From NCBI GenBank assembly GCA_001560915.1, contig CP014214.1, positions 1,178,001-1,242,000 of the forward strand: a stretch of DNA of 64,000 bases, given 5' to 3'. Origin of the DNA: a methanogenic archaeon ISO4-H5. GTDB taxonomy: Archaea > Thermoplasmatota > Thermoplasmata > Methanomassiliicoccales > Methanomethylophilaceae. Made by a program: the position numbers and the translations under genes. The notes under the pieces are model-generated. The model ran no database searches. It saw only the letters and a program-made list of their open reading frames with translations, and was not told the origin of the DNA. Positions 41,439-60,264 of this stretch are shown one piece after another. Each line of letters starts with the position of its first letter. Within the stretch, counting starts at the first letter, position 1.

Positions 41439-41470
41439 TAATGTATAAATTTATACATTAATGTATAAAT
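41439..41470. promoter_or_regulatory. Triple half-site operator candidate on the trpB2 promoter
   Basis: Three half-sites ATGTATAAAT, ATTTATACAT and ATGTATAAAT alternate in direction, producing two overlapping perfect 22-bp palindromes (41439-41460 and 41449-41470). The last half-site is also the TATA box (centre about 41467), 26 bases before the trpB2 ATG. ATGTAT-N6-ATACATTAATGTAT here is identical in bases and spacing to the element upstream of trpE. Confidence 0.75.
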
Positions 41471-41492
41471 ATGCAAATGCTATCTCGCAACT

Positions 41493-42829
41493 ATGGCAAT
41501 ACCCAAAGACATCAGGATCAACCTTGCGAACGAAGACATCCCCAAGAAATGGTACAACTTCGCGGCCGACGTCCCTGATCTCGCACCCCCGCTCAATCCC
41601 GGCACCAGGGAACCCGCAAAGCCCTCCGACTTCGAGCCTATCTTCTGTAAGGAGATCATCAAACAGGAAGGCTCCACCGAGAGGTGGATCGACATCCCCG
41701 AGGAAGTCAGGGAAGCACTCATCAGCCTCAACAGGCCCGCACCCCTCCAGAGGGCATACAGGCTCGAGAAGGCCCTGAAGACCCCCGCCAAGATCTACTT
41801 CAAGAGGGAGGACATGAGCCCCCTCGGATCCCACAAGGGAAACACCGCTCTCGCCCAGGCATACTACAACGCAGAGGCAGGCATCCACACCCTCACCACC
41901 GAGACCGGTGCGGGACAGTGGGGAACCGCCCTCGCCATGGTGTCAACCTCTTCGACATCGACACCACCGTCTTCATGGTCAAGGGAAGCTACATGGCCAA
42001 GCCCCTGAGGAAGACCATCATCAACACCTACGGCGCAACCATCTACGCCTCCCCCTCCGAGCAGACCGAGTTCGGAAGAAAGGTCCTGAAGGAGCACCCC
42101 GACACCCCCGGATCCCTCGGAATCGCAATCTCCGAGGCGTGCGAGATGGCCGCCAAGAACGACGGCGTCTGCTACTCCCTGGGTTCCGTCCTCAACCACG
42201 TCATGCTCCACCAGTCCGTCATCGGTCTGGAGACAACCAAGCAGATGGAGATCGGAGAGATCACTCCCGATGTCGTCATCGCATGCGCCGGAGGAGGTTC
42301 CAACCTCGGAGGAATGACCCTTCCGATGATCGGAGCCAAGCTCGCAGGCAACAAGATGTTCGAGAACACCAGGTTCAAGGCTGTGGAGCCCAAAGCAGCA
42401 CCCTCCATGACCAAGGGAGAGTTCAAGTACGACTTCGGAGACACCGCCGGATTCACCCCGCTCCTCATGATGTACACCCTGGGAAGCGACTTCATCCCCT
42501 CGTCCATCCACGCCGGAGGACTCAGGTACCACGGAATGTCCCCTCTCGTATCCGCCGCCTACCACCACGGATACCTCGAGAGCACCTCCTACGACCAGAC
42601 CGAGACCTTCGAGGCCGGAGTGCTGTTCGCCAGGACCGAGGGAATCATCCCTGCACCCGAGTCCTGCCACGCCCTCAAGGGCGCCATCGACGAGGCACTC
42701 GACGCCAAGGCCAAGAACGAGGAGAGGACCATCGTGTTCTGTCTCTCCGGCCACGGTCTCCTGGACCTCTACGGTTACGAGCAGTACCTCAACGGTACCC
42801 TGCCCTCCTCCGAAAGGAGCGATTTCTGA
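41493..42829 (+). pseudogene. trpB2: TrpB2-type tryptophan synthase beta chain, interrupted by a one-base deletion
   Basis: Two frames join into one TrpB2 protein of about 445 residues. The first part runs from [20 protein letters not shown] through [19 protein letters not shown] (the pyridoxal-phosphate lysine in SHKGN) to [14 protein letters not shown]; the second from [20 protein letters not shown] through ACAGGGSNLGGM to the normal end LNGTLPSSERSDF. The break is at 41940-41941, where one inserted base restores Met-Ala-Val-Asn-Leu. No other defect is seen, so the lesion is recent or a sequencing error. TrpB2 enzymes make tryptophan from indole and serine, independently of TrpA; a complete TrpB1 is in the operon at 58305. 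The message is leaderless and carries the tryptophan-type operator. Confidence 0.9.
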
Positions 42830-44646: not shown

Positions 44647-47600
44647 TCACTGCTTCTTGCCGAGGGCTCCGAGCTGCAGCTTTCCGGTCATGATGAGGTA
44701 TCCGAAGATTCCGAGCACCGCGGCAATGGCTATCACCACTCCCACGATGATCATGGTGTTGTTGCCTCCGCCGTTGGGGGCGGGGGACTCGACCATCACA
44801 GCATAGTAGGACAGGTGGGTGGTCTCGAAGGTGACCTTGCCATCGGCATAGGTGCACTTGAGGGCCTCGTGGGTTCCGTCCTCCTTGATGTTCCAGATGA
44901 CCAGGTTGTTGGGATTCTCGTTGGGTCCGAGCTGGTAGTCGAGGGTGATTGTCAGCTTTCCGTCGAACTGGTGCACGTCTCCGATCTTGATGTCGTAGAC
45001 GGAACGTCCGGCGGCGGATTCGACGATGATGTTCGGGATTCCCTCGTCCTTCTTGATGCTGACCTCCAGGTCGTCCGCGGTGCTCAGGGACTGGATGGAA
45101 GCGCTGTCGAGGGAGATGGAACCGTTCTTCATGTTGATGTCCAGCTTCTCGAGGGTTCCGGCCTGGGCATCGTTCTTCACCTTGTCGATGTCGGCAGTGG
45201 TTATGGTCGCCGCGGTCTCGGTGGCACTGTCGACGGTGGTGGTTCCGCTGATGGGATCGGGAACGGCGATCACGGATTCGTACACAGCCGTGACGGTCAG
45301 ATCCGCCTTGAGGGGGGTGGTAGACTCGTAGCCGGTCCAGCTCTTGAAGGTGTAGGTCGTCGAACCGACGGCATCCTTCTGGGCGTTGCCGAGGCCTCCG
45401 ATGATATCGGACACCGCGGTACTGCTGGCGAACTCCTTGGTGTAGACGCCGCTAGACAGAGTCCATCCGGCGGGGTTCACGAGGGTTCCTCCGACGGGGT
45501 CGGCGGTCACTGTGTACATGATGGCCTCCCATCCCGCATAGACCGTCACGTTGCCGTGGGATCCGGTCGCGATGGTCGTCACAGGAGTCTCCAGGCCTAC
45601 ATCCCTGAACCATCCGGTGAACCTGTAGTCCTCGCGGACGGCATCCTGCAGGGTGATGGTGGCGGACTCGATGTTGTAGACCGTGGGGTTGGCGGCGTTG
45701 GTACCTCCGTTCAGCACGTAGCTGATACTGTAGTCGACCGGGGTCCACTTGGCGTAAACGTCCTTGTCACCGGTCTCGCCAGGAGCGATTCCTGTCACCT
45801 TGGTGACGAGTCCGGCTTCCGCGAACCATCCTGCGGGGGTGTAGTAGTCCTTGGATGCATAGGCGAAGTTGACTCCCGTTTCGACATTGTAGATGGCGGG
45901 GTTGTTGTTGGTCGCACCCTCTGTGTTGTGGTAGGTGATGGCGTACTCATGTATCTGCCACTGGGCATAGAGGTCGGGAGCACCGTCCCTGACCCACTTG
46001 CCGTCAGCATCGGTGTAGCCGGGGATGCTGGCGACCAGGGCACCGTCGGTTCCGATGATCTTGGCTCCGCCGCTGGCCGCGGTGTAGTATCCGGTCAGGT
46101 CGTATCCGGTCCTGGAGACGTGGACTACGAGGAGGACGTTGGAGGCGTAGGTTACGGAAGCGCTTCCGTCGCTCGCTCCTCCGTTCTTCTGGAGGGTGAG
46201 GTCGTAGTCCTTGGCTACCCACTGCGCATACAGGGTGAGGGTGGCGGCCTCGGAGGCCCACTTGCCGTCAACGACGTAACCGTCGGCGTTTTGCACCAGG
46301 GTTCCGTCGGCGATGATGATTACCACTCCTCCGGTGGCCTGTGTGGAGTATCCTGCGAGATCGTAGCCGGCCCTGGTAACAGCGTCGAAGTCGGTGATGC
46401 CGGCATCGTAGGTGGCGGTGGCGTTCCTGTTCGAATCTCCGCCGTTCTTGTCGATGGTGATATCGGTGGTGTTCGCGGTCCACTGCGCATAGATGGTGAC
46501 AGCGGGCTGATCGAGCTTCCACAGTCCTCCGACAAGGTAGCCCTCGGCATTCAGCACCGTGCTTCCGTCGGCATTGACGATCTTCACGCCGCCCTGTGCC
46601 GCGGACCAGTATCCGGTCAGGGTGTATCCGGTCCTTGAGATGGAATCGAATGAAATGATGGCTCCGTCGTAGGTGGCGCTGGTGCCCTTGTCCGCATCTC
46701 CGCCGTTCCTGTCGACGGCGATCTCGGTGGTCTTCGCGGTCCATCTGGCGTACAGGGTGAGTGTGGCCGATTCGTTGGCCCACTTGCTGTCGACGACGTA
46801 TCCTGCCGCGTTCACCATCGTACCGTCGGGATTGATTACCTTGTCTCCGCTGTCGGATGCGGTGAAGTATCCGTCAAGGATGTATCCGATCCTGGTCACT
46901 GCGTCGAAGGAGGTGATGCCTCCGTCATAGGTGGCGGTGGCGTTCCTGTTCGCGGAGCCTCCGTTCGCATCGATGGTAATCGCGGTGGTCTTGGCGTTCC
47001 ACTTGGTGTACAGGGTGAAATTCTCCTCCTTGATCCACTTGCCGTTGGCATCGGTGTAGCCGCTGATACCGGCGATCAGATCTCCGTTGCCGTCGACTAT
47101 CTTCTGCATCCTGGCACTGTCGGTGTAGTATCCTTCTACCTCGTATCCGGTCCTGGCGGGGGCCGTCACATTGGTGAGGTATCCTCCGAATACCGCCCTG
47201 GCGGTTCCGTCGGTTCCCTCCACGCCTTCCAGCGTCACATCGACGATGAGGTTGGTCCATATGGTGTACAGGGTGAGGGTCTCATCCATGCAGGTCCACT
47301 TTCCGTCCGCGTCGGTGTAGGCGGTGTTGGCACGCAGCCTGCCTCCCGCTTCCGCGATCGGGTCTCCGTCGGCAGTCGGGGCATATCCGGAGATGAAGTA
47401 CGTCTCCTTGACAGGTATGACAGCAATCTCGATGGTCGCGAGGCCGTAGGTGGCGGTCGCCTGACCTCCGCTCTCGCCGGTGTTCTTGTCAATGGTGATG
47501 GCGGTGGTCTTCGCGTTCCACTGTGCATACAGTACGAGCTCCGATCCGATGTGGATCCACCTGCCTTCGGCATCGGCGTAGGCAGTGTTCCTGACGAGGG

Positions 47601-50600
47601 TTCCGTCGGTATTGATGACCATAGTTCCGTCCGAGGCGGAGGTCCAGTAACCGGTCAGGTCGTATCCGGTACGGGTCATCACTGCGAAGGAGGGCAGGAC
47701 GGCATCGTATTCGGCGGTGAAGGTGCGGTCAGAATCTCCTCCGTTCCTGTCAAGGGTAACAACGGTACGTTCAGCCAACCAGTTCGGGTAGAACGTGAGG
47801 TCGGAGATGACGTCGTAAGTCCACTTTCCGTTGGTCGTGTAAACGGTCTCGGCGCTCACCAGGCTTCCGTTGTGCCTTACGACCTCGGTGTCCTGATCGT
47901 CATAGTATCCCGTGCTGCTGTATCCGACCCTGACGGGTGCCCTGAACTCGGTGACGCCGGAGTCGTAGGTGACGTCGACGTAACCGTTCTCGGTACCCTC
48001 ACCCTTGTCAATGACGATCCTGTAGGTCTTTGCTGACCACTGGGCGTACAGGGTGCATTCGGCGGTTTCTGAGATCCACTTTCCGTTGGAGACATATCCT
48101 TCGGCGTTCTGCACAAGGCTTCCGTTGGCGTTGATGATCAGCACACCGTTCTCGGCCGCAGTGAAGAAACCGGTGAGTTCATATCCGGTCCTGGCAACCG
48201 TGTTGAAGTCGGTGATGCCTCCGTCGTAGGTGGCTGTAGCGGAGCCGTTCGAAGCACCTCCGTTCGCATTGAGGGTGATTGCGGTGGTACCGGGGGTCCA
48301 CTGGCAATACAGATCCACGCGACCTTCCACAAGTGCCCACTTGCCGTTGACGATGTAGCCGTCGGCGTTCTGAACCAGGGTCTTGTCGGCGTTCATAATC
48401 TTGACGCCGTTCTCGGCAGCGGTCCAGAACCCGGTCAGATCATATCCGGTCCTTGTGAAGGGTGTGGTGAAGCTCCCTGCTGTCTGGTCGTAGTTGATAT
48501 TGGTCTGGATGGTCGTATCTATTCCATTACCCCTGATGAAGAGGATGGTGCTCTTCACATTCCACTGTGCGTACAGGGTCAGGGATGCGGATTCATTGAC
48601 CCACTTGCCGTCGACCACATATCCCTGGGCGTCGGCGAGGCTTCCGTCGGCGTTGATGACCCTGACACCCCTTCCCGGTTCTGTGTAATAACCGTCGAGG
48701 TCGTATCCGGTCCTGGTGACCGCATCGAAGGCCTCGATACCTGCATCGTAGGTCGCGGTGGTGGATCTGTTCTCTCCGGCTCCTTCGTTCACATCGATGG
48801 TGATTGCGGTGGTACCGGGGGTCCACTGGGCATAGAGAGTGATATGGGTTCCGGGGAACTTCGCGATTGTGTAAGGGGTAGATAGCGACTCGTCCGAGTA
48901 CCAGCCTCCGAAGGTGTAGTGACTCTTGGTAGGCTCATCAACGGAGGGTACGGCTTTACCCTCAATACCAATCAGATCGCCGATGGCACTGCCACCGTTC
49001 GTCTCGAAAGAGAAACCGGTATCGCACTTCTCCATACGTTGGGGTGTTCCGGTAAACTTGTACCCGGCAAGCTTTCCCGCATTGTGGGACAGCCGATCTC
49101 CGTTCAGATCGAAGAATGAGAACCCATTGAATGAAGTACTGTCAACGGACTCGACAGCGGACGGAATGGTGATTTCCGTCACGTAAGAACAATCCACGAA
49201 TGCGTACTGATCGATGGTCCTCACACTGTCGGGAAGCGTAATTACAGTGATTCCCGTGCTGTTGAAAGCATATCTGCCAATAGTCTCGATATCATCGTTA
49301 TAGTTCACGGTTTTGAGGTTGGCACATCCGTAAAACAGCATGGTCGGTACCGTAGTGACACCTTCACCGAAGGTGACTACACAGTTGGGTGCTGCGGCGT
49401 TGAATATTGCCCCGTTTCCGGTGATTTCACAGTTGGCATTGAAATTAATCTGCACCAACGAGGTCATACCGCTGAATGCTGCCGCACCAATGCTGGTTAC
49501 ATTGGATGGCACGGTAAGTGCTGATACTCCGCTACAGTCCTTGAAAGCACTGTTGGAGATTATCAAATCGTTAGTACCGAAGGATATATCGGTAAGACCG
49601 GAGCAGCCCTTGAACGCTTCCTGGCCGATATTCTGCAGATTGTCACCGAACTCGATCGAACTCAATCCAGTGCATCCGTCGAATGCATTCGCACCTACCG
49701 AAAGCACACTATCGGGCAGGACAAGCGCACCGGTAAGCCTTGTAATTCTCTGGAACATTTTGGCAGGAATTGATTTTACCTCGGTACCGATAGTCAGAGT
49801 GAAGTCCTCGTACTCGGCACCATCGTTGAACAAACTGCTCGCGGATGTGACGTTCACGGCGTTGTATACCACAGCAGTTAGTTTGCTGGAATTATAGAAC
49901 GCACCAGAGTCGATGGAACTGACACTCTTTCCTATAGTCAAAGATTCTATCTGTGTGTCACTAAACGCAGTTGAACCGATAGTCGTCACATGATCGGGGA
50001 TTTCCAACGCTGTGATGCTGGTCCCGGCGAATGAGTCTTTACCGATCGTGATAAGTGTGGATGGCAAAGATACAGATTTGATTTTACCGACATAATAGAA
50101 AGCAGACCCCGGTATCGAAGTTACACCCTCAGATACAATGAGATTGATTCCCGTTTCGGCTCCGGAATTATAGAAAACCGAATTACCGTAACTTGTACAC
50201 TCGACGGCACCATAGGTGATAGAGGTCAAGCCGGTACAAGTATAGAATGCGTAATTACCGACACTCTTGACCGATGCGGGCAACGTAACCGAGGTCAGAC
50301 CGGCACAACTCGCAAAAGCGCTACTCCCGATAGATACGACATTGCTACCCATCGTTACACTGATGACCTTGTCATTAGAGCGGAATAAGCAATTGGGTAT
50401 GTGCTCCACACTATCGCCTATTACTACTTCGCACTGAGATGCCTCTCCCATGCAATAGAACGGAGAACTGTTGAAATCGCCGCAGTGTATGGCATTGAAC
50501 CGTATTTCTGCCAAAGAGTTACAAGATGAAAATGCATAACTTCCGATGGAAGTTACCTTTGTTGGAATCTCGATGGAAGTTATACCGGTTCCAGAAAACG

Positions 50601-52989
50601 CACTCACACCGATGGTCTCGACGTTGGCGCCCATATTGACCGCTTTCACATTCGCATTGCCGGAGACGAAACACTCTGGAATAATAACTACAGACGCCCC
50701 GATATTGATCGTTATGCCGGGATCCTCAGAACCAGCGTTACGGAACGGATCATAATTATTAGGCACAGATTCAATTGATACCGCATTGTAGTTAATGGTC
50801 TTGACAGAAGTGCAGTTCAGGAACGGGTAGTATCCGAAACTTGTAACGCTGTCAGGTATGGTGACAGTCAGAATCTTGTTACAACCGGTGAAAGCCTTCT
50901 GACCGACGGTTGTCACTCCGTGAGGGAGAGTCACCTCTGGACCGATATTGGAATATGCGAACAATTCCTCGGGAATGATCTCAACGGTTTCGCCGAAGGT
51001 TACTGCCATCCCCTCCTCACTGCCGGCTCCATCGAATATACGCGTATTGCTTCCTGCCTGACAGTTAACTGCATTGTAGGTCAGTGAAGTCAAACCGGTA
51101 CAATGATAGAATGCCCTGGAGCCCAGTTTCGATAGCGATGCGGGGAGTGCCAGCGACTCGATACCAGCACAGTATGAGAACGCCTCGGAACCGATGTTCG
51201 TGACATTTGCAGACAACGTCAACTCTGTGACACCTGCACAGTTCTTGAAGGCGTAGTTCCCGATCTCCGTTACCGAATTGGGTATGGTCAGGGATTTGAT
51301 GCAAGTTGTCTCGGCATTAAAATACAAAAGGTAAGCAGGTATCCTCTGGACCGAAGAACCGAATGTGACAGTTACAGTAGATTCTGTATCAAAATCAAAA
51401 GTATATTGATTGAGATCCGCGCATGATACCACATTAAAAGTCAGTGAGTCGATAGAACATGCAGAGAATGCCCCTTGCCCAATGCTCTTGACTCCGGTGC
51501 CGATTGTGACACTCTTAAGAGTGCCAATATAAGCAAAAGCGCTGGAGCCTATCGCGGTGACTGAATCGGGTATGGTGACCTCGGCAATATCCGCATTACT
51601 GAATGCGGTGTCTCCGATATCCCTGATTCCCTCTCCGAGGGTGAGCACCACTTTCGCCTCTCCATTCGATATACCGCAACTGCCGAAGGCATGCAAACCT
51701 ATGGAGAAACCGCCGCTTATCGAAATCGATTCTACATATTTGCTGTTGTAGAATGCATCTTTGCCTATAACGGAATCCTCGGTACCTTTCAGAATTATGT
51801 TGATGAGTTTGGAGTTCTCGAACGCATTTTCTCCTATGAAGGAAATACTATCTCCGAACTTAAAACTCTGAAGTTTCTCACAGTTCTTGAATGCATTTTT
51901 TCCATAGTGCGTGACCGCACTTCCTCCTGCCACAGAATCTAGATTGTCACAGCTATAGAATGCATAATCTCCTATGGAGGTAAGACTTTCAGGAAGTATG
52001 AACCCGGTCACATTTGTCTGGTCATAGAAAGCGTATGAGGCTATCTCTTCTACTCCCGCAGGTATTGTTGCTGTACCAGCAGGCACTCTGCCGATGTGCA
52101 TTATGAGTTGCTTACCATCGAAAGTAAGTATATAATCGTCAACGATTTTGAAATGGGTGTTTGCAGGGTCAATGGTGATTGTTGGATTTACCCAGATATC
52201 AAACGGACGTTCGCAAAGAGTTTCCAAATCTTTGTTTATGTTCAGCGTTTTTATATTGCTATTACTGATTGTTGACGCAATCTCAGTCACGCCATTGGGA
52301 ATCGTGTACGTGTCTCCCGTCTTCGATGCAGGATACAGAAGCATCTTCCCCATGTCCTTGGTGTAAAGGACACCGTCGACTGACGCAAAACAGGTGTTGG
52401 CTGCGGCCACGGATATCGTGGTGAGAGTATTGTTTGTAAAAGCATTCTCTCCGAATTCGGTTAGTCCAGTACCAATATTCAATTCAGCAAGATTGGTTTG
52501 GTAGAATGCTCCTGCACCAACCTTGCTGACACTATTCGGAAGTGTGACAGAAGTAAAATCGCAACCCCTGAATGAATCAATCCCTATTTCTTCTACGGCA
52601 TTACCAAGAGTGAGTGTGGTGATATAACCGTTTAAAAACGCCTCATCGGCTATAGAGGTAATACCCTCTCCGACTATCAGAGTCTTGACGGAACTCTTGA
52701 ATCCATACCAAGGATAATTCCTATAGTCCGATTCTTTAGTCATCGGGCCTGAACCAGATAGTGTCAAAGTCTGATCCCCATCGAACTCCCAGGTAATATC
52801 CCCGAACTCCCCACTGGAGGGCTCTGCAGAGGAGGGATCCGTATTCTCAAAAACTAAGCACGTCAGAACGAACAGCAATGCGATTGCTGCGCATCCTGCT
52901 TTTATAAAAGTCCGGTAGGAAACGCCCCGTGAGCGCCTACCGATACAGCGGAGGTTTTTGTCTTTCTCCGCACGGTAGCTAGCGGTCAT
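44647..52989 (-). CDS. Giant cell-surface protein with LRR (BspA-type) and InlB-type repeats
   Basis: A 2780-residue exported protein. An N-terminal hydrophobic segment (GCAAIALLFVLTCLVF) acts as signal or anchor. Residues about 70-1400 are BspA-type leucine-rich repeats (units like VTIPDSVTAIGSSAFAYIGT and ITSIGSYAFSSCNSLAEI). Residues about 1420-2500 hold about 14 InlB B-repeat (Listeria-Bacteroides) units with the marks TFGGWYSDE, TLYAQWTPGTTAITID and RTGYDLTGY. A final beta domain precedes a membrane helix (MIIVGVVIAIAAVLGIFGYL) and a short basic tail. Such adhesin-like proteins are typical of gut-dwelling methanogens and bacteria. The LRR half is visibly more AT-rich than the InlB half. 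A TATA box (CTTTTAAAAAGG, about 53011-53022) gives a leaderless message. Confidence 0.92.
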   Translation of the reverse strand: MTASYRAEKDKNLRCIGRRSRGVSYRTFIKAGCAAIALLFVLTCLVFENTDPSSAEPSSGEFGDITWEFDGDQTLTLSGSGPMTKESDYRNYPWYGFKSSVKTLIVGEGITSIADEAFLNGYITTLTLGNAVEEIGIDSFRGCDFTSVTLPNSVSKVGAGAFYQTNLAELNIGTGLTEFGENAFTNNTLTTISVAAANTCFASVDGVLYTKDMGKMLLYPASKTGDTYTIPNGVTEIASTISNSNIKTLNINKDLETLCERPFDIWVNPTITIDPANTHFKIVDDYILTFDGKQLIMHIGRVPAGTATIPAGVEEIASYAFYDQTNVTGFILPESLTSIGDYAFYSCDNLDSVAGGSAVTHYGKNAFKNCEKLQSFKFGDSISFIGENAFENSKLINIILKGTEDSVIGKDAFYNSKYVESISISGGFSIGLHAFGSCGISNGEAKVVLTLGEGIRDIGDTAFSNADIAEVTIPDSVTAIGSSAFAYIGTLKSVTIGTGVKSIGQGAFSACSIDSLTFNVVSCADLNQYTFDFDTESTVTVTFGSSVQRIPAYLLYFNAETTCIKSLTIPNSVTEIGNYAFKNCAGVTELTLSANVTNIGSEAFSYCAGIESLALPASLSKLGSRAFYHCTGLTSLTYNAVNCQAGSNTRIFDGAGSEEGMAVTFGETVEIIPEELFAYSNIGPEVTLPHGVTTVGQKAFTGCNKILTVTIPDSVTSFGYYPFLNCTSVKTINYNAVSIESVPNNYDPFRNAGSEDPGITINIGASVVIIPECFVSGNANVKAVNMGANVETIGVSAFSGTGITSIEIPTKVTSIGSYAFSSCNSLAEIRFNAIHCGDFNSSPFYCMGEASQCEVVIGDSVEHIPNCLFRSNDKVISVTMGSNVVSIGSSAFASCAGLTSVTLPASVKSVGNYAFYTCTGLTSITYGAVECTSYGNSVFYNSGAETGINLIVSEGVTSIPGSAFYYVGKIKSVSLPSTLITIGKDSFAGTSITALEIPDHVTTIGSTAFSDTQIESLTIGKSVSSIDSGAFYNSSKLTAVVYNAVNVTSASSLFNDGAEYEDFTLTIGTEVKSIPAKMFQRITRLTGALVLPDSVLSVGANAFDGCTGLSSIEFGDNLQNIGQEAFKGCSGLTDISFGTNDLIISNSAFKDCSGVSALTVPSNVTSIGAAAFSGMTSLVQINFNANCEITGNGAIFNAAAPNCVVTFGEGVTTVPTMLFYGCANLKTVNYNDDIETIGRYAFNSTGITVITLPDSVRTIDQYAFVDCSYVTEITIPSAVESVDSTSFNGFSFFDLNGDRLSHNAGKLAGYKFTGTPQRMEKCDTGFSFETNGGSAIGDLIGIEGKAVPSVDEPTKSHYTFGGWYSDESLSTPYTIAKFPGTHITLYAQWTPGTTAITIDVNEGAGENRSTTATYDAGIEAFDAVTRTGYDLDGYYTEPGRGVRVINADGSLADAQGYVVDGKWVNESASLTLYAQWNVKSTILFIRGNGIDTTIQTNINYDQTAGSFTTPFTRTGYDLTGFWTAAENGVKIMNADKTLVQNADGYIVNGKWALVEGRVDLYCQWTPGTTAITLNANGGASNGSATATYDGGITDFNTVARTGYELTGFFTAAENGVLIINANGSLVQNAEGYVSNGKWISETAECTLYAQWSAKTYRIVIDKGEGTENGYVDVTYDSGVTEFRAPVRVGYSSTGYYDDQDTEVVRHNGSLVSAETVYTTNGKWTYDVISDLTFYPNWLAERTVVTLDRNGGDSDRTFTAEYDAVLPSFAVMTRTGYDLTGYWTSASDGTMVINTDGTLVRNTAYADAEGRWIHIGSELVLYAQWNAKTTAITIDKNTGESGGQATATYGLATIEIAVIPVKETYFISGYAPTADGDPIAEAGGRLRANTAYTDADGKWTCMDETLTLYTIWTNLIVDVTLEGVEGTDGTARAVFGGYLTNVTAPARTGYEVEGYYTDSARMQKIVDGNGDLIAGISGYTDANGKWIKEENFTLYTKWNAKTTAITIDANGGSANRNATATYDGGITSFDAVTRIGYILDGYFTASDSGDKVINPDGTMVNAAGYVVDSKWANESATLTLYARWTAKTTEIAVDRNGGDADKGTSATYDGAIISFDSISRTGYTLTGYWSAAQGGVKIVNADGSTVLNAEGYLVGGLWKLDQPAVTIYAQWTANTTDITIDKNGGDSNRNATATYDAGITDFDAVTRAGYDLAGYSTQATGGVVIIIADGTLVQNADGYVVDGKWASEAATLTLYAQWVAKDYDLTLQKNGGASDGSASVTYASNVLLVVHVSRTGYDLTGYYTAASGGAKIIGTDGALVASIPGYTDADGKWVRDGAPDLYAQWQIHEYAITYHNTEGATNNNPAIYNVETGVNFAYASKDYYTPAGWFAEAGLVTKVTGIAPGETGDKDVYAKWTPVDYSISYVLNGGTNAANPTVYNIESATITLQDAVREDYRFTGWFRDVGLETPVTTIATGSHGNVTVYAGWEAIMYTVTADPVGGTLVNPAGWTLSSGVYTKEFASSTAVSDIIGGLGNAQKDAVGSTTYTFKSWTGYESTTPLKADLTVTAVYESVIAVPDPISGTTTVDSATETAATITTADIDKVKNDAQAGTLEKLDINMKNGSISLDSASIQSLSTADDLEVSIKKDEGIPNIIVESAAGRSVYDIKIGDVHQFDGKLTITLDYQLGPNENPNNLVIWNIKEDGTHEALKCTYADGKVTFETTHLSYYAVMVESPAPNGGGNNTMIIVGVVIAIAAVLGIFGYLIMTGKLQLGALGKKQ

Positions 52990-53729: not shown

Positions 53730-53756
53730 ATGTATATTTTCATACATTAATGTATG
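53730..53756. promoter_or_regulatory. Upstream tryptophan-operator candidate of the trp operon
   Basis: ATGTAT-N6-ATACATTAATGTAT, with a perfect 16-bp palindrome CATACATTAATGTATG at 53741-53756. Identical spacing to the trpB2 element. It lies 20-45 bases upstream of the TATA box (TATATAA, 53776-53782). Confidence 0.7.
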
Positions 53757-53817
53757 TTATTATCCATAATATTAATATATAACTTTTAGATTAATAATTG
53801 AACATAAAGTAACATCA

Positions 53818-53835
53818 ATGTATAGAAAAATACAT
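53818..53835. promoter_or_regulatory. Second tryptophan-operator candidate, in the trpE leader
   Basis: ATGTAT-AGAAAA-ATACAT is a third copy of the dyad, just downstream of the expected transcription start (about 53805) and before the ribosome site GGAG of trpE. Confidence 0.65.
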
Positions 53836-53848
53836 CGGAGAGAAGAAC

Positions 53849-55312
53849 ATGCTTAAGCCCAGTCTGGAAGAAGTGAAGGCCTACGCCGCCGACGGAAGAT
53901 ACACAGTCTGCCCCGTGTGCCAGGAGATCCTATCTGATTTCAGGACCCCCGTCGAGGTGATGAGGGCTCTGATGAACATCGATGAGCACTGCTTCATGTT
54001 GGAGAGTGCCGACCAGTCCAAGAGATGGGGCCGCTACACCTTCCTCGGCTACAGACCCAGACTCGGTATAACCGTACAGGACGGAGAGGTCACCGTCGAC
54101 GGGAAGAAACACGTCACTAAGGACCCTGCCGAGGATATCCGTGCTATCCTGAACGATTACCGCAGCCCGAAGGTACCCGGTCTCCCTCCGTTCACCGGAG
54201 GACTCGTTGGATACTTCTCCTACGACTACCTGAAGTACTCCGAGCCCAGCCTCAGGCTCGACGCCAAGGATACTGAGGGATTCAAGGACGTCGACCTCAT
54301 GCTGTTCGACAGACTGGTGGTCTTCGACAACTTCTCCCAGAAGATGCTACTGATCGTTAACATCTCCCTCGACGACCCCGAAAACAATTACATTACGGCC
54401 AAACACGAACTCCTGAGGATCATGGAACTGGTCAGATACGGTAAACCGGAGCACAGGCTGTTCGGCAGGATGGATTCCACCATGAAACCGTTCTACACCA
54501 AGGAACAGTTCTGCGATATGGTGGAGAAGGCAAAGCACCACATCAGAGAAGGAGATATCTTCCAGATCGTGCTCTCCAACAGACTGGAGGCAAGGTTCGA
54601 AGGCAGTCTCTTCAACACCTACAGGGTGCTCAGGAGCCTGAACCCCTCGCCCTACATGTTCTACTTCTCCGGTTCCGACATGGAGGTAGCCGGTGCATCT
54701 CCGGAAACCCTGGTGAAACTGGAGGACGGCACCCTCCACACCTTCCCCCTGGCGGGTACCCGTCCCCGCGGGAAGACCGAGGAGGAGGACCTCCTTCTGG
54801 AGAAGGAGCTCCTCTCCGACCCCAAGGAACTCGCCGAGCACAACATGCTGGTCGATCTCGGAAGGAACGACATCGGGAAGATCAGCAAGTTCGGAACTGT
54901 AGAAGTAGAAAAGTTCCACGTGGTGGAGCGCTACTCCCACGTGATGCACATAGGTTCCACCGTGCGCGGAGAGATCAGGGACGACAATGATGCATTGGAT
55001 GCAATCGCATCAATCCTGCCTGCCGGCACCCTTTCGGGAGCACCCAAGATCCGTGCGGCCCAGCTCATCAACGACCTGGAGGACAACAAGCGCGGAATCT
55101 ACGGAGGAGGAATCGGATACATCGACTTCTCCGGCAACATGGACATCTGCATCGCGATCCGCATAGCTTACAAGAAGAACAACAGGGTCTTCGTCAGGAG
55201 CGGTGCGGGCATCGTGGCTGACTCCGTCCCCGAGAAGGAGTATGAGGAGACGCTCAACAAAGCGGCCGCTGTCATCAACGCCATGAAGATTGCGGAGAGT
55301 GAGGACATATGA
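53849..55312 (+). CDS. trpE: Anthranilate synthase component I
   Basis: A 487-residue chorismate-binding enzyme. The N-terminal HCFMLESADQSKRWGRYTFL contains the L-E-S element of the tryptophan feedback site, so allosteric inhibition is likely retained. The catalytic C-terminal domain has FQIVLSNRLEARF, VAGASPETLVKLEDGTL, PLAGTRPRGK, SHVMHIGSTV, PAGTLSGAPKIRA and GAGIVADSVPEKEYEET. With TrpG it converts chorismate and glutamine to anthranilate. It is first of seven overlapping genes. TATA box at 53776-53782, leader of about 44 bases, ribosome site GGAG. Operator candidates flank the promoter. Confidence 0.97.
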   Translation: MLKPSLEEVKAYAADGRYTVCPVCQEILSDFRTPVEVMRALMNIDEHCFMLESADQSKRWGRYTFLGYRPRLGITVQDGEVTVDGKKHVTKDPAEDIRAILNDYRSPKVPGLPPFTGGLVGYFSYDYLKYSEPSLRLDAKDTEGFKDVDLMLFDRLVVFDNFSQKMLLIVNISLDDPENNYITAKHELLRIMELVRYGKPEHRLFGRMDSTMKPFYTKEQFCDMVEKAKHHIREGDIFQIVLSNRLEARFEGSLFNTYRVLRSLNPSPYMFYFSGSDMEVAGASPETLVKLEDGTLHTFPLAGTRPRGKTEEEDLLLEKELLSDPKELAEHNMLVDLGRNDIGKISKFGTVEVEKFHVVERYSHVMHIGSTVRGEIRDDNDALDAIASILPAGTLSGAPKIRAAQLINDLEDNKRGIYGGGIGYIDFSGNMDICIAIRIAYKKNNRVFVRSGAGIVADSVPEKEYEETLNKAAAVINAMKIAESEDI

Positions 55313-55887
55313 TTCTCCTCATCGACAACTACGACAGCTTCTCTTACAACCTCTACCAGCTGATCGGTTCCCTCGACCCCGAGATAAAGGTCGTCAGGAA
55401 CGATGCTCTTTCGGTGAAAGAGATTGATGCACTGAACCCCAAGGCCATCATCGTCTCCCCCGGTCCCGGACGTCCCGAGGATGCCGGGATCTGTATCGAA
55501 GCAATCCGCGAGCTGGGACCCAAATATCCCATACTCGGAGTGTGTCTGGGTCATCAGTCCATATGCGCAGCGTACGGGGCTACCATCACCTATGCGAAGG
55601 AACTGATGCACGGCAAACAGTCCTCGGTATCCCTCGAGAAGGATGCCATCTTCGAAGGTGTGGAAAACGGTGCACTCGTTGCGAGGTACCATTCGCTTGC
55701 GGCTGATCCTTCCACCATTCCATCATGTCTGAAGGTCATCGCCACCGCCGACGACGGGGAGATCATGGCAGTGAAACACACCGACTATCCTGTCTACGGA
55801 CTTCAGTTCCATCCCGAATCCGTGATGACACCCTCTGGAAAGACCATCTTGGCCAATTTCCTGAAGATTGCGGAGGGAAGGCAATGA
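55309..55887 (+). CDS. trpG: Anthranilate synthase component II (glutamine amidotransferase)
   Basis: A 192-residue class I glutaminase. It starts [16 protein letters not shown]; the oxyanion strand is [13 protein letters not shown], the catalytic Cys is in GVCLGHQSI, and the His-Glu pair is in [11 protein letters not shown]. It supplies ammonia to TrpE. It overlaps trpE by ATGA and trpD by ATGA, so translation is coupled. It is not fused to TrpE or TrpD. Confidence 0.97.
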
Positions 55888-56900
55888 TAAAAGAAGCTAT
55901 CATCAAACTAGTCAACAAGGGGGACCTCACCTACGACGAAGCGTTCACCGTCATGAACGAGATCATGGACGGGAACACCACCCCCACCCAGAACGCGGCC
56001 TTCCTGGCGGCACTGACCACCAAGAATACCAGGACCGAGACCGAAGCGGAGATCGCCGGATGTGCCAGCGCCATGCGTTCCCACGCCATGACTGTGGAAC
56101 ATCCTTACAAAGTTCTCGACATCGTCGGTACCGGAGGCGACGGTTCCAACACATTCAACATCTCCACCACCTCAGCTTTCGTCATCTCGGCCGGAGGCAC
56201 CAAGGTGGCCAAGCACGGCAACCGTGCCGCCTCCTCGAAATCGGGAGCGGCAGACTGCCTCGAAGCCCTGGAGATCAACCTCGACCAGCCCCCGGAGAGA
56301 GCGGTAAAACTCCTTGATGACCCCGGAATCTGCTTCATGTTCGCCCAGAGGTACCACTCTTCGATGAAGTACGTCGGTCCCATCAGGAAGGAACTCGGAT
56401 TCAGGACGGTGTTCAACATCCTCGGTCCGCTGACCAATCCCGCCAGGCCTGCATACCAGGTCCTGGGAGTGTACGACGTCATGCTCGTGAACCCTCTGGC
56501 ACATGTGCTATCATCCCTCGGGGTGGAGAAAGGTATGGTCGTCTACGGAACCGACGGACTCGACGAGTTCTCACCTGTAGGGCCTACCAGGATCTGCGAT
56601 TTCGAAGGCGACAAATACGACACCTACACCGTAGATCCCGAAGATCTGGGCATCGTCCGCTGCTCTAAATCGGATATCGCGGGAGGAAGTCCCGAGGACA
56701 ACGCCCGCATCACCCTCGACATTCTCAAGGGAAAGAAGGGACCGAAGTACGACACCGTCCTCCTCAACGCGGGAGCGGGACTCTATGTCAGCAGGCAGGC
56801 ATCCTCCGTCAAGGACGGAATGGAACTGGCGGACAAGCTCATCGCCGACGGCAGGGCATACGAACAGTACGAGAGATTCAGGGCGGCATCCAACCAATGA
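55884..56900 (+). CDS. trpD: Anthranilate phosphoribosyltransferase
   Basis: A 338-residue enzyme starting [15 protein letters not shown] at the ATGA overlap with trpG; a longer open frame upstream is not coding. [20 protein letters not shown] is the PRPP-binding signature, followed by [20 protein letters not shown] and the anthranilate-binding [12 protein letters not shown]. It transfers phosphoribose to anthranilate. The length and motifs are those of single-function TrpD. Confidence 0.96.
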
Positions 56901-57688
56901 GCGGCAATATCCTCAGGACTCTGGCGGACGATGCCAGGATCCGTGTCCAGAACTCAATGAAGATCGTCTCCCCCGCAGAGATGGCCAATCTGGCCAGAAA
57001 GATGGACTGCGATACCGGTTTCCCCTTCGAGAAAGCACTGAAACAGCCGGGGATGAGCTTCATCTGCGAATGCAAGAAGGCCTCTCCTTCTAAAGGGGTC
57101 ATCGCAGAGGAGTTCCCTTACCTGCAGATTGCGAAGGCATACGAGGAAGCGGGTGCGGCGGCCATCTCTGTCCTCACCGAACCCACGAAGTTCCTGGGAG
57201 AGGGGAGATTCCTGAAGGAGATCTCCGAGAACGTTTCGATACCCTGTCTCCGCAAGGACTTCATCGTGGACGAGTACATGATCTACGAGGCCAAGACCCT
57301 CGGAGCCTCCGCTGTGCTGCTGATCTGCGCATTGCTGAACGAAGAGGACCTCAGAAGGTTCGTGAAGATCGCCCACGGCCTGGGAATAACCGCGTTCGTG
57401 GAGACCCGCACCGCATCCGAGATCGACATGGCGGTGAGGGCAGGAGCCCGGGTCATCGGCGTGAACAACCGCGACCTCAGGGACTTCTCGGTGGACATCA
57501 AGACCTGCCTGATGCTGAGGCAGCACGTACCCTCCGACATTGTATTCGTGGCTGAGAGCGGCATCTCCAACAGGGAGGACATCGAGCGCCTGGAGAAGGC
57601 GGGAGTCGATGCCGTGCTCATAGGCGAGACCCTGATGAGAGCATCCGACAAGAAGAAGGCCCTGGCAGAACTGAGGGGTTCCCCTTGA
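56897..57688 (+). CDS. trpC: Indole-3-glycerol-phosphate synthase
   Basis: A 263-residue TIM barrel. [19 protein letters not shown] corresponds to the usual I-x-E-x-K-x-x-S-P-S motif with the catalytic Lys and Glu; [28 protein letters not shown] and [13 protein letters not shown] complete the active site and phosphate-binding loop. It cyclises carboxyphenylamino-deoxyribulose phosphate. It overlaps trpD by ATGA and ends within the TTG start of trpF. Confidence 0.96.
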
Positions 57689-58308
57689 CTCTCATCAAGC
57701 TCTGCGGGATGATGCGCCCCGAGGACATCACAGTGTGCAACAGACTGCATCCCGACTATGCGGGATTCGTATTCTGGGACAAGAGCAAACGCTGCGTTTC
57801 CGTCAATACCGCAAGGGCTCTGATAGCAGACCTCGACGAAGGAATCGTCCCGGTGGGAGTGTTCCGCAATCAATCCCTCTCGGAGGTAATCTCAGCCGCA
57901 GACACAGGTATTCGCATGATCCAGCTTCACGGTTCTGAGGACCAGGGATTCATCAACCTCGTGAAGGAACAGACCGGACTCCCGGTCATAAAAGCGTTCA
58001 CGGTTACAGATGAAGAGAGCATCACCGAATCACTCAGGATCTCCAGCGATCACATCATGTACGACAGCGGAGCCGGAAGCGGAATGAAATCCGACTGGTC
58101 CCTGCTCAGGAACATACAAACACCTTACTTCCTCGCGGGGGGCTTGGATGCCGGAAACGTAGAGGAAGCGATAAAAGAGCTGCACCCTTACGCGGTGGAC
58201 GTCAGCTCAGGCATCGAGACAGACGGGCGCAAGGACCCCGCAAAGATGGAAACATTCACGGAGGCCGTCCGCAGGGCGGACCTTAACCACAGGAAGGAAG
58301 AGAAATGA
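57685..58308 (+). CDS. trpF: Phosphoribosylanthranilate isomerase
   Basis: A 207-residue TIM barrel beginning at TTG (57685), inside the stop of trpC (TTGA). [12 protein letters not shown] corresponds to the K-I-C-G active-site motif; then [50 protein letters not shown] and [15 protein letters not shown] with the catalytic Asp. It performs the Amadori rearrangement of phosphoribosylanthranilate. The weak start codon may set its ratio to the neighbouring enzymes. Confidence 0.95.
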
Positions 58309-59495
58309 CCAACCCGAACGGAAGATTCGGAGAATACGGCGGACAGTACATGCCGGAGACCCTCATGAGCGCGGTCATCGAGCTCGAGGAGGCGTACAAC
58401 AGATACAAGGACGATCCCGAGTTCAACAGGGAATTGAACGAACTCCTCGAGGAATATGCCAACCGCCCCAGCAGACTGTACTACGCGAAGAAGATGACCG
58501 AGGACCTCGGCGGAGCCAAGATATATCTCAAAAGGGAGGACCTCAACCACACCGGCGCCCACAAGATAAACAACGTGCTGGGACAAGCACTATTGGCAAA
58601 GAAGATGGGCAAGACCAGGCTCATCGCCGAGACCGGCGCGGGTCAGCACGGAGTGGCCACCGCCACCGCTGCCGCTCTGTTGGGTATGGAATGTCTGGTG
58701 TACATGGGTGTGGAGGACATGGAGCGTCAGAAGCTCAATGTTTACCGCATGCGCCTGCTCGGAGCCGAGGTAAGGGGAGTGGAGACCGGTACCGGCACCC
58801 TCAAAGACGCTGTATCTCAATGCATGAGGGAGTGGACCACCCGCATCGCCGACACCCATTACTGTCTCGGATCCGTCATGGGTCCCCATCCCTTCCCCAC
58901 TATCGTAAGGGACTTCCAGGCCATCATCGGCAGGGAGATCAGGAAGCAGATCATGGAGAAAGAGGGCCGTCTGCCTGATATGCTCATCGCCTGCGTCGGA
59001 GGAGGCTCCAACGCCATCGGAACGTTCTATGACTTCATCAAGGACAAGGAAGTAGAACTGGTAGGAGCCGAAGCCGCAGGAAAAGGAATCGATACCCCCC
59101 TCACAGCGGCCACCATAAACACCGGCTCGGTCGGTATCTTCCATGGAATGAAATCCTACTTCTGCCAGGACAAGTACGGTCAGATCGCTCCTGTATACTC
59201 AATCTCTGCGGGATTGGACTATCCGGGCATCGGTCCCGAGCATGCCTGGTTATCGGATATCGGAAGGGCGAAGTACGTCGCTGTCACTGACGAGGAGGCC
59301 GTACAGGCCTTCGAGTACCTTTCGAGGACGGAAGGAATCATCCCTGCGATAGAATCGGCACATGCATTGGCATACGCCATCAAGGTGGCTCCCACCATGG
59401 ATAAGGACAAGATCATCGTCGTGACGGTCTCCGGACGCGGCGACAAGGATGTGGCGGCCATCGCCAGGTACAGGGGAGAGGATCTCCATGAGTGA
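58305..59495 (+). CDS. trpB: Tryptophan synthase beta chain (TrpB1)
   Basis: A 396-residue PLP enzyme of the TrpB1 type that works with Trp[17 protein letters not shown] starts the chain; [15 protein letters not shown] contains the PLP lysine; [20 protein letters not shown] and [12 protein letters not shown] bind the cofactor phosphate. The COMM-type loop and the usual length are present. It overlaps trpF by ATGA and trpA by 8 bases. It differs strongly from the TrpB2 at 41493, which has the TrpB2-type N-terminal extension. Confidence 0.97.
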
Positions 59496-60264
59496 TCTCG
59501 CCAAAGCGTTCGACCACGGCAAGGCGTTCATTGCCTTCGTCACCTGCGGAGACCCCGACCTGGAGACCACCGGCAAGGTAGTAAGGGCGATGGTCGAGAA
59601 CGGAGCCGATCTCATCGAGCTCGGTATCCCCTTCTCCGACCCCACCGCAGAAGGCCCTGTCATCATGGACGCGGACAAACGCGCATTGGACGGAGGAGTG
59701 ACCACCGACGACATCTTCGAGTTCACCAGGGAATTGAGAAATGATGTGAAGGTACCCATGCTCTACATGACCTACGCCAATGTGGTGTTCCACTACGGGG
59801 CGGAGGAGTTCTGCCGCAAAGCATCCGAAGCAGGAGTCAGCGGACTCATCCTCCCGGATGTGCCTTTCGAGGAAAAAGCAGACTTCGACGGCATGTGCCA
59901 GAAGTACGGAATAGACCTGGTTTCCATGGTCGCTCCCACCTCCGAGAGCAGGATTGCCTCCATCGTATCGGAGGCCCGCGGATTCGTCTACGTGGTCTCC
60001 TCCCTCGGTGTGACCGGCATCAGGACCAGCATCACCACCGACCTGAGACCCATGATTGATCTCATCAGGAAGAACACTGATATACCATGTGCGATAGGAT
60101 TCGGGATCTCCACCCCCGAACAATGCAGGGATATGGGGAACCTCGCAGACGGTGCCATCGTGGGCAGCGCCATCGTGAAACTCATAGCGAAGTACGGCCG
60201 CGATTCGGCCGGACCCGTAGGAGAATATGTCGCTTCCATGACACAAGCCCTTAAAAACCCCTGA
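59488..60264 (+). CDS. trpA: Tryptophan synthase alpha chain
   Basis: A 258-residue TIM barrel starting [18 protein letters not shown]; the longer open frame upstream overlaps trpB and is not needed. [18 protein letters not shown] holds the catalytic Glu, and the position of the second catalytic acid (Asp in D-G-P of E. coli) is Glu here, a variant common in clostridial-type Trp[14 protein letters not shown] and [12 protein letters not shown] form the phosphate site. It splits indole-glycerol phosphate and channels indole to TrpB. Last gene of the operon. Confidence 0.96.

Follow-up and report, generated by a model that had tools for sequence, protein, structure and literature searches.

Bacterial TrpR and TyrR exert amino acid-responsive control over trp genes and over the regulator gene itself. 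The reach of TyrR extends to both aromatic uptake and aromatic synthesis. The NrpR operators of methanogens are found at archaeal promoters of nitrogen genes and consist of facing half-sites (GGTAA-N6-TTACC). Very few archaeal regulators of amino acid genes have a defined operator and regulon. In M. thermautotrophicus, TrpY represses trpY and the trp operon via TRP boxes between trpY and trpE (PMC6737238). The TrpY homologue of T. kodakarensis does not bind the trp promoter specifically and exerts no control over trp (PMC6737238). That organism encodes the activator Tar (TK0271), with the operator TGGACA-N8-TGTCCA upstream of BRE/TATA (PMC6737238). According to the main published survey that we found (PMC6737238), what other TrpY branches do has yet to be examined and is beyond estimation.

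We analyzed a window of 64,000 nucleotides from the genome of the methanogenic archaeon ISO4-H5 (G000; 1,937,883 bp in one contig). Window coordinates and genome coordinates are quoted separately. The exact motif is ATGTAT-N6-ATACAT, and the relaxed motif is ATGTAY-N6-RTACAT. The window contains the trp operon and a second tryptophan synthase beta chain gene, trpB2, and both carry the exact motif at their promoters. A literature search turned up no publication on this regulon.

Operators at the trp operon

The trp operon (trpEGDCFBA) is on the plus strand. Its first gene, trpE (53849 to 55312), was taken from the list of open reading frames and has orthologues in relatives. The genes trpG, trpD, trpC, trpF, trpB, and trpA follow 3' of trpE on the same strand (55309 to 60264) in overlapping or adjacent frames and were named by sequence reading.

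The promoter region contains two perfect copies of the motif. Operator O1 (53730 to 53747, plus strand) reads ATGTAT-ATTTTC-ATACAT and lies 5' of the trpE TATA box. Its position is kept in orthologues at about -120 to trpE. A second tandem unit with 1 mismatch, ATGTAT-GTTATT-ATCCAT (53750 to 53767, plus strand), lies 20 bp downstream of the first, and the inner dyad ATACATTAATGTAT (53742 to 53755) is common to both units. The tandem units (53730 to 53767) stop just short of the probable TATA box of the operon, which was read as AATATATAA at 53774 to 53782 (plus strand). Standard archaeal promoter geometry places the expected transcription start at about 53800 to 53803.

Operator O2 (53818 to 53835, plus strand) reads ATGTAT-AGAAAA-ATACAT. 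It is in the leader, downstream of the expected start and ahead of the ribosome-binding site, and a third half-site, AACAT-CA, comes before it. Eight genomes have a leader copy 88 to 89 bp away from the upstream one. The two copies could act in different ways.

Other features of this region were also recorded. The window encodes a predicted surface protein of 2780 aa on the minus strand (44647 to 52989), with many leucine-rich-like and other repeats. Its gene has a quinolinate-synthase-like gene on one side and the trp operon on the other, both named by sequence reading. One relative has a seemingly broken trpE (G036:C25:4094-5553), with three in-frame TGA codons and two overlapping pieces, and its promoter operators are still present. 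In another (G035), the open reading frame just upstream of the trpE region (L137:5952-7778) was read as indolepyruvate ferredoxin oxidoreductase (IorA). This IorA-like frame beside trpE is another join of aryl-acid metabolism with trp.

Operator at trpB2

The trpB2 gene is at 41493 to 42829 (plus strand; list of open reading frames). Its operator (41441 to 41466, plus strand) reads ATGTAT-AAATTT-ATACAT-TA-ATGTAT and overlaps the likely TATA box (about 41463 to 41471). The mRNA may be leaderless. The operator is kept at -55 to -67 in orthologues. In G087, trpB2 and trpE are divergent and have 258 bp in common, with three sites inside.

The trpB2 frame is broken by a one-base frameshift near 41945. 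The gene of a relative (G045) is intact and 98 to 99% identical. Either the deposited genome contains a sequencing error here or the gene has recently lost its function.

Counts in the window and genome

The exact motif was found in the window at O1, at O2, and at 41441 to 41458 in the trpB2 operator. The 26-bp layout ATGTAT-N6-ATACATTAATGTAT is exact at 53730 to 53755 and at 41441 to 41466, the only two loci in the window. It had no match at up to 3 mismatches in 100 dinucleotide shuffles of the window. Both the pair of dyads around the trp promoter and the layout common to trpE and trpB2 are thus as the original prediction had described them.

The G000 genome contains four exact sites, three of which are those at trpE (two copies) and trpB2. 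The fourth (G000:1094668) has a GC-rich spacer, is flanked by a MATE-type efflux gene and a second gene, and looks like a chance match. At 1 mismatch, G000 has 7 sites versus 6 in a read-backwards control. The relaxed motif at 1 mismatch discriminated weakly in one genome (15 matches versus 10 in the control), and an extended 20-mer at 3 mismatches did not discriminate (19 versus 21). The other relaxed matches in G000 are mostly within reading frames or have GC-rich spacers. The promoters of a CopZ-like gene (L128) and a DUF39-like gene (L130) bear weak sites. Because the 1-mismatch control is nearly equal, only exact and extended matches discriminate in a single genome, and the conservation test carries the weight.

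Conservation and spacing across the order

The regions upstream of trpE and trpB2 were gathered from relatives in the Methanomassiliicoccales (98 regions). The motif is present at ≤1 mismatch in 51 of them. The same regions gave 0 matches at this threshold when reversed and a mean of 0.36 (maximum, 2) in dinucleotide shuffles. For trpE alone, 58 of 68 upstream regions contain a site at ≤2 mismatches.

Across the order, the consensus reads TAATGTAYA-N4-TRTACATTA, and a second unit comes after it at a period of 20 bp. Facing half-sites prefer a spacer of N6 (51 promoters), and back-to-back half-sites prefer N2 (32 promoters). Half-sites in the same direction are at N14 in about 20 promoters, which gives the 20-bp period. 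A background sample of 447 real upstream regions, regulon genes included, contained 30 that score ≤2 mismatches. All 8 background regions at ≤1 mismatch are trpE, trpB2, or trpY intergenic regions. The motif is a true regulatory element, conserved order-wide, with defined spacing and target genes.

Conservation in orthologous promoters, on which the original prediction depended, is clearly present. Its proposal that the dyads are the operator of a tryptophan regulator has strong support from the conservation and specificity of the motif and from its target genes. It had also named many unrelated genomic matches as a finding that would count against it. Such matches occur with the relaxed motif in one genome, at a level similar to the control; the exact sites and the cross-species evidence point the other way.

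Additional targets

Targets were sought by an unbiased pattern scan (ATGTAYA-N4-TRTACAT) of 23 complete genomes of the family. The scan gave 1 to 6 matches per genome versus 0 to 3 in the control. The recurrent neighbors other than trp genes were a PaaK-type aryl-CoA ligase, an OFA-family MFS transporter, and PdxS. One match in G117 is at the gene for a 165-aa HTH-ACT protein.

Orthologue sets for the new targets were scored at ≤2 mismatches with no picking of matches. Sites were found for the OFA/MFS transporter in 17 of 19 orthologues (shuffle mean, 1.10), for trpY in 22 of 47 (1.98), for paaK in 11 of 30 (1.05), and for pdxS in 10 of 30 (1.62). The Fisher p values against the background, which overstate the evidence because orthologues are non-independent samples, were 8e-17, 8e-12, 8e-6, and 5e-5, respectively. 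More weight attaches to the spread over genera. The sites at trpY, paaK, and pdxS are not universal among orthologues. In genus g9, paaK lies immediately behind another gene and lacks a site; control of paaK therefore does not extend to the whole order. The regulon sites of G000 are those at trpE, trpB2, paaK, and trpY only; searches of G000 at the thresholds used turned up neither an OFA nor a pdxS orthologue.

Three further candidates, all in relatives, were rejected as targets. These were the glucose-1-phosphate thymidylyltransferase/malic enzyme region (L185 and L192), homoserine kinase (L197), and an ATP synthase subunit region (L194), and their matches were chance-like or unplaceable.

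Three g14 genomes contain a perfect ATGTAC-N6-ATACAT (L187 at about 1979, L190 at about 1979, and L208 at about 2070). A CitMHS/ArsB-like transporter gene and a CARF-like gene converge on each of these sites, and no promoter is obvious. Two paaK genes contain one in-frame TAG, at codon 19 in L268 (G034; Lys in relatives) and at codon 157 in L285 (G078; Gln in relatives). In this pyrrolysine-using order, the TAG may reflect either read-through or a pseudogene.

A TrpY-family protein

G000 encodes a single trpY homologue, a TrpY-family HTH-ACT protein (genome positions 473765 to 474256, minus strand). Residues 2 to 162 match positions 2 to 163 of the model NF053754 (NCBIfam TrpY family transcription regulator) with an E value of 3e-42. 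The score of 143.7 bits is below the curated cut-off of 180. The homologues of relatives score 136 to 152 bits against the same cut-off, over their full length and with E values of about 1e-39 to 1e-44. The Pfam ACT model scored 28.1 bits (cut-off, 27) in L342, a relative that is 98% identical. An AlphaFold model (mean pLDDT, 92) has an N-terminal helical/winged domain (HTH) and a C-terminal ACT fold. Its matches among solved structures are ACT domains (phosphoglycerate dehydrogenase and IlvN) and also PH0061, which we take to be an Lrp-like protein.

In G000, the motif AATGTACATTTTTATACTATG at 474258 abuts the trpY start codon. A chorismate mutase gene is divergent from trpY. The gene is about 758 kb from trpE and is not divergent from it. 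Among loci from genome contigs (Thermoplasmatota only), a site at ≤2 mismatches was present upstream of trpY in 29 of 79 versus 6 of 79 when reversed. The trpY site is weaker than the trp sites, usually with 2 mismatches. The genes divergent from trpY in 80 related loci include chorismate mutase (14), a DeoC/LacD-type aldolase read as ADTH synthase (12), 3-dehydroquinate synthase II (11), AroD-AroE (8), and a GHMP kinase read as shikimate kinase (6).

A TrpY homologue was found in 126 of the 147 genomes of the order and in 71 of the 74 good genomes. It was not detected in G057 (93% complete) or G087 (96% complete), which have good operators. These absences are likely due to gaps in fragmented assemblies.

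Judged by its sequence, the protein is TrpY-like and not a confirmed TrpY, and the system would work like a TrpY regulon. We did not file it as a confirmed TrpY regulon because the score is under the cut-off and trpY is not adjacent to trpE.

Proposed mechanism and alternatives

It is highly likely that the dyads are operators of a TrpY-like repressor with tryptophan or aromatic amino acids as its ligand. We infer the binder, the ligand, and the sign of regulation; the element, its conservation, its spacing, its targets, and the motif at trpY were observed directly. A TrpY-like dimer would touch a facing pair of ATGTAY half-sites, one on each side of N6. In tandem units, with a 20-bp period and N2 between back-to-back half-sites, a second dimer would sit beside the first. 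The sites at trpE lie on either side of the probable promoter, one set upstream of BRE/TATA and one site in the leader, and those at trpB2 overlap the likely TATA box. At such positions, binding should keep out TBP/TFB or RNA polymerase. Repression would follow when the ACT domain is occupied by tryptophan or by aromatic amino acids in general.

The TrpY-like protein would also govern its own gene, the genes for aryl-acid uptake and activation (the OFA transporter and PaaK), and, in several lineages, vitamin B6 synthesis through PLP synthase. We give about even chances to its being a broad aromatic regulator that uses one operator type at trp, trpB2, the OFA transporter gene, paaK, its own gene, and, in several lineages, pdxS. 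With one operator type over these genes, the cell would switch jointly between making and salvaging aromatic amino acids. Such a tie between aryl-acid salvage (PaaK and the OFA transporter) and tryptophan control would be a nutritional trait of host-associated methanogens.

The repeats could instead be general promoter or AT-rich sequence, such as copies of TATA and BRE, with the coincidence at two loci due to chance or local duplication. The motif is AT-rich, it overlaps the TATA box at trpB2, and the single-genome counts at 1 mismatch are scarcely above the control. This reading is already contradicted by the exact N6 and N2 spacing, by absence from reversed and shuffled promoters, by the restriction of matches at ≤1 mismatch to trp and trpY among the 447 upstream regions, and by conservation over genera. 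We regard it as extremely improbable. It is also very improbable that the leader copy (53818 to 53835) acts in RNA, for example as an attenuation hairpin, and not as a DNA operator. In favor of this reading, the copy is palindromic and sits downstream of the expected transcription start and ahead of the ribosome-binding site. Its sequence and spacing are the same as those of the copies upstream of the promoter, and in RNA ATGTAT-N6-ATACAT would form a weak, A-U-rich stem of 6 bp.

A real operator might also be read by another DNA-binding protein, with trpY merely a member of the regulon. The trpY sites are weaker than those at trp, OFA, or paaK, two fairly complete operator-bearing genomes show no trpY, and the trp promoter of T. 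kodakarensis uses a different protein, Tar (PMC6737238). Set against these points, trpY (in G117) was the sole regulator gene in the 23-genome scan whose motif is placed as in a promoter; at an ArsR-type gene (L202, G094), the site is after the gene and not before it. The presence of trpY in 71 of 74 good genomes, its ACT domain of the amino-acid-binding type, and its place beside aromatic pathway genes also argue for the TrpY-like protein. We consider another reader unlikely. The TrpY homologue of T. kodakarensis lacks trp control, so homology alone is no proof of the TrpY-like repressor; further support comes from the operator at trpY and from the genomic context.

Comparison with known systems

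The system resembles that of M. thermautotrophicus in having a regulator related over its full length and operators at both the trp operon and trpY. There, too, trpB2 is reportedly a target of TrpY. The half-site TGTAYA covers the TRP box TGTACA of Methanothermobacter, a relation that is suggestive at the sequence level. The two systems differ in that the protein described here scores below the family cut-off and its gene is divergent from chorismate mutase or shikimate genes and not beside trpE. They also differ in the facing pair ATGTAY-N6-RTACAT every 20 bp and in the extra targets paaK, the OFA transporter gene, and pdxS.

Several parts of the original prediction need revision. It held the regulator to be an unrecognized one, which is probably wrong, as a TrpY-family HTH-ACT protein is encoded in G000 and in 126 of 147 genomes and has the motif at its own promoter. 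Its statement that the sites are not the TrpY box is probably mistaken too, since the half-site TGTAYA includes the quoted TGTACA. Nor are the sites confined to the two tryptophan loci of the window; the regulon also has paaK, the OFA transporter gene, pdxS, and trpY. One TrpY branch, in rumen and gut methanogens, would thereby gain an operator, a target list, and a directly testable pairing of regulator and operator.

Like Tar, the proposed regulator would control trp and other aromatic operons of an archaeon from an inverted repeat close to BRE/TATA. The Tar operator differs in sequence and spacer from the ATGTAT-N6-ATACAT of trpE and trpB2. TrpR and TyrR are set apart by architecture, as the protein described here has an HTH plus an ACT domain of the TrpY type, and their operators are different. 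The NrpR operators share facing half-sites with N6 and differ in sequence, gene class, and protein.
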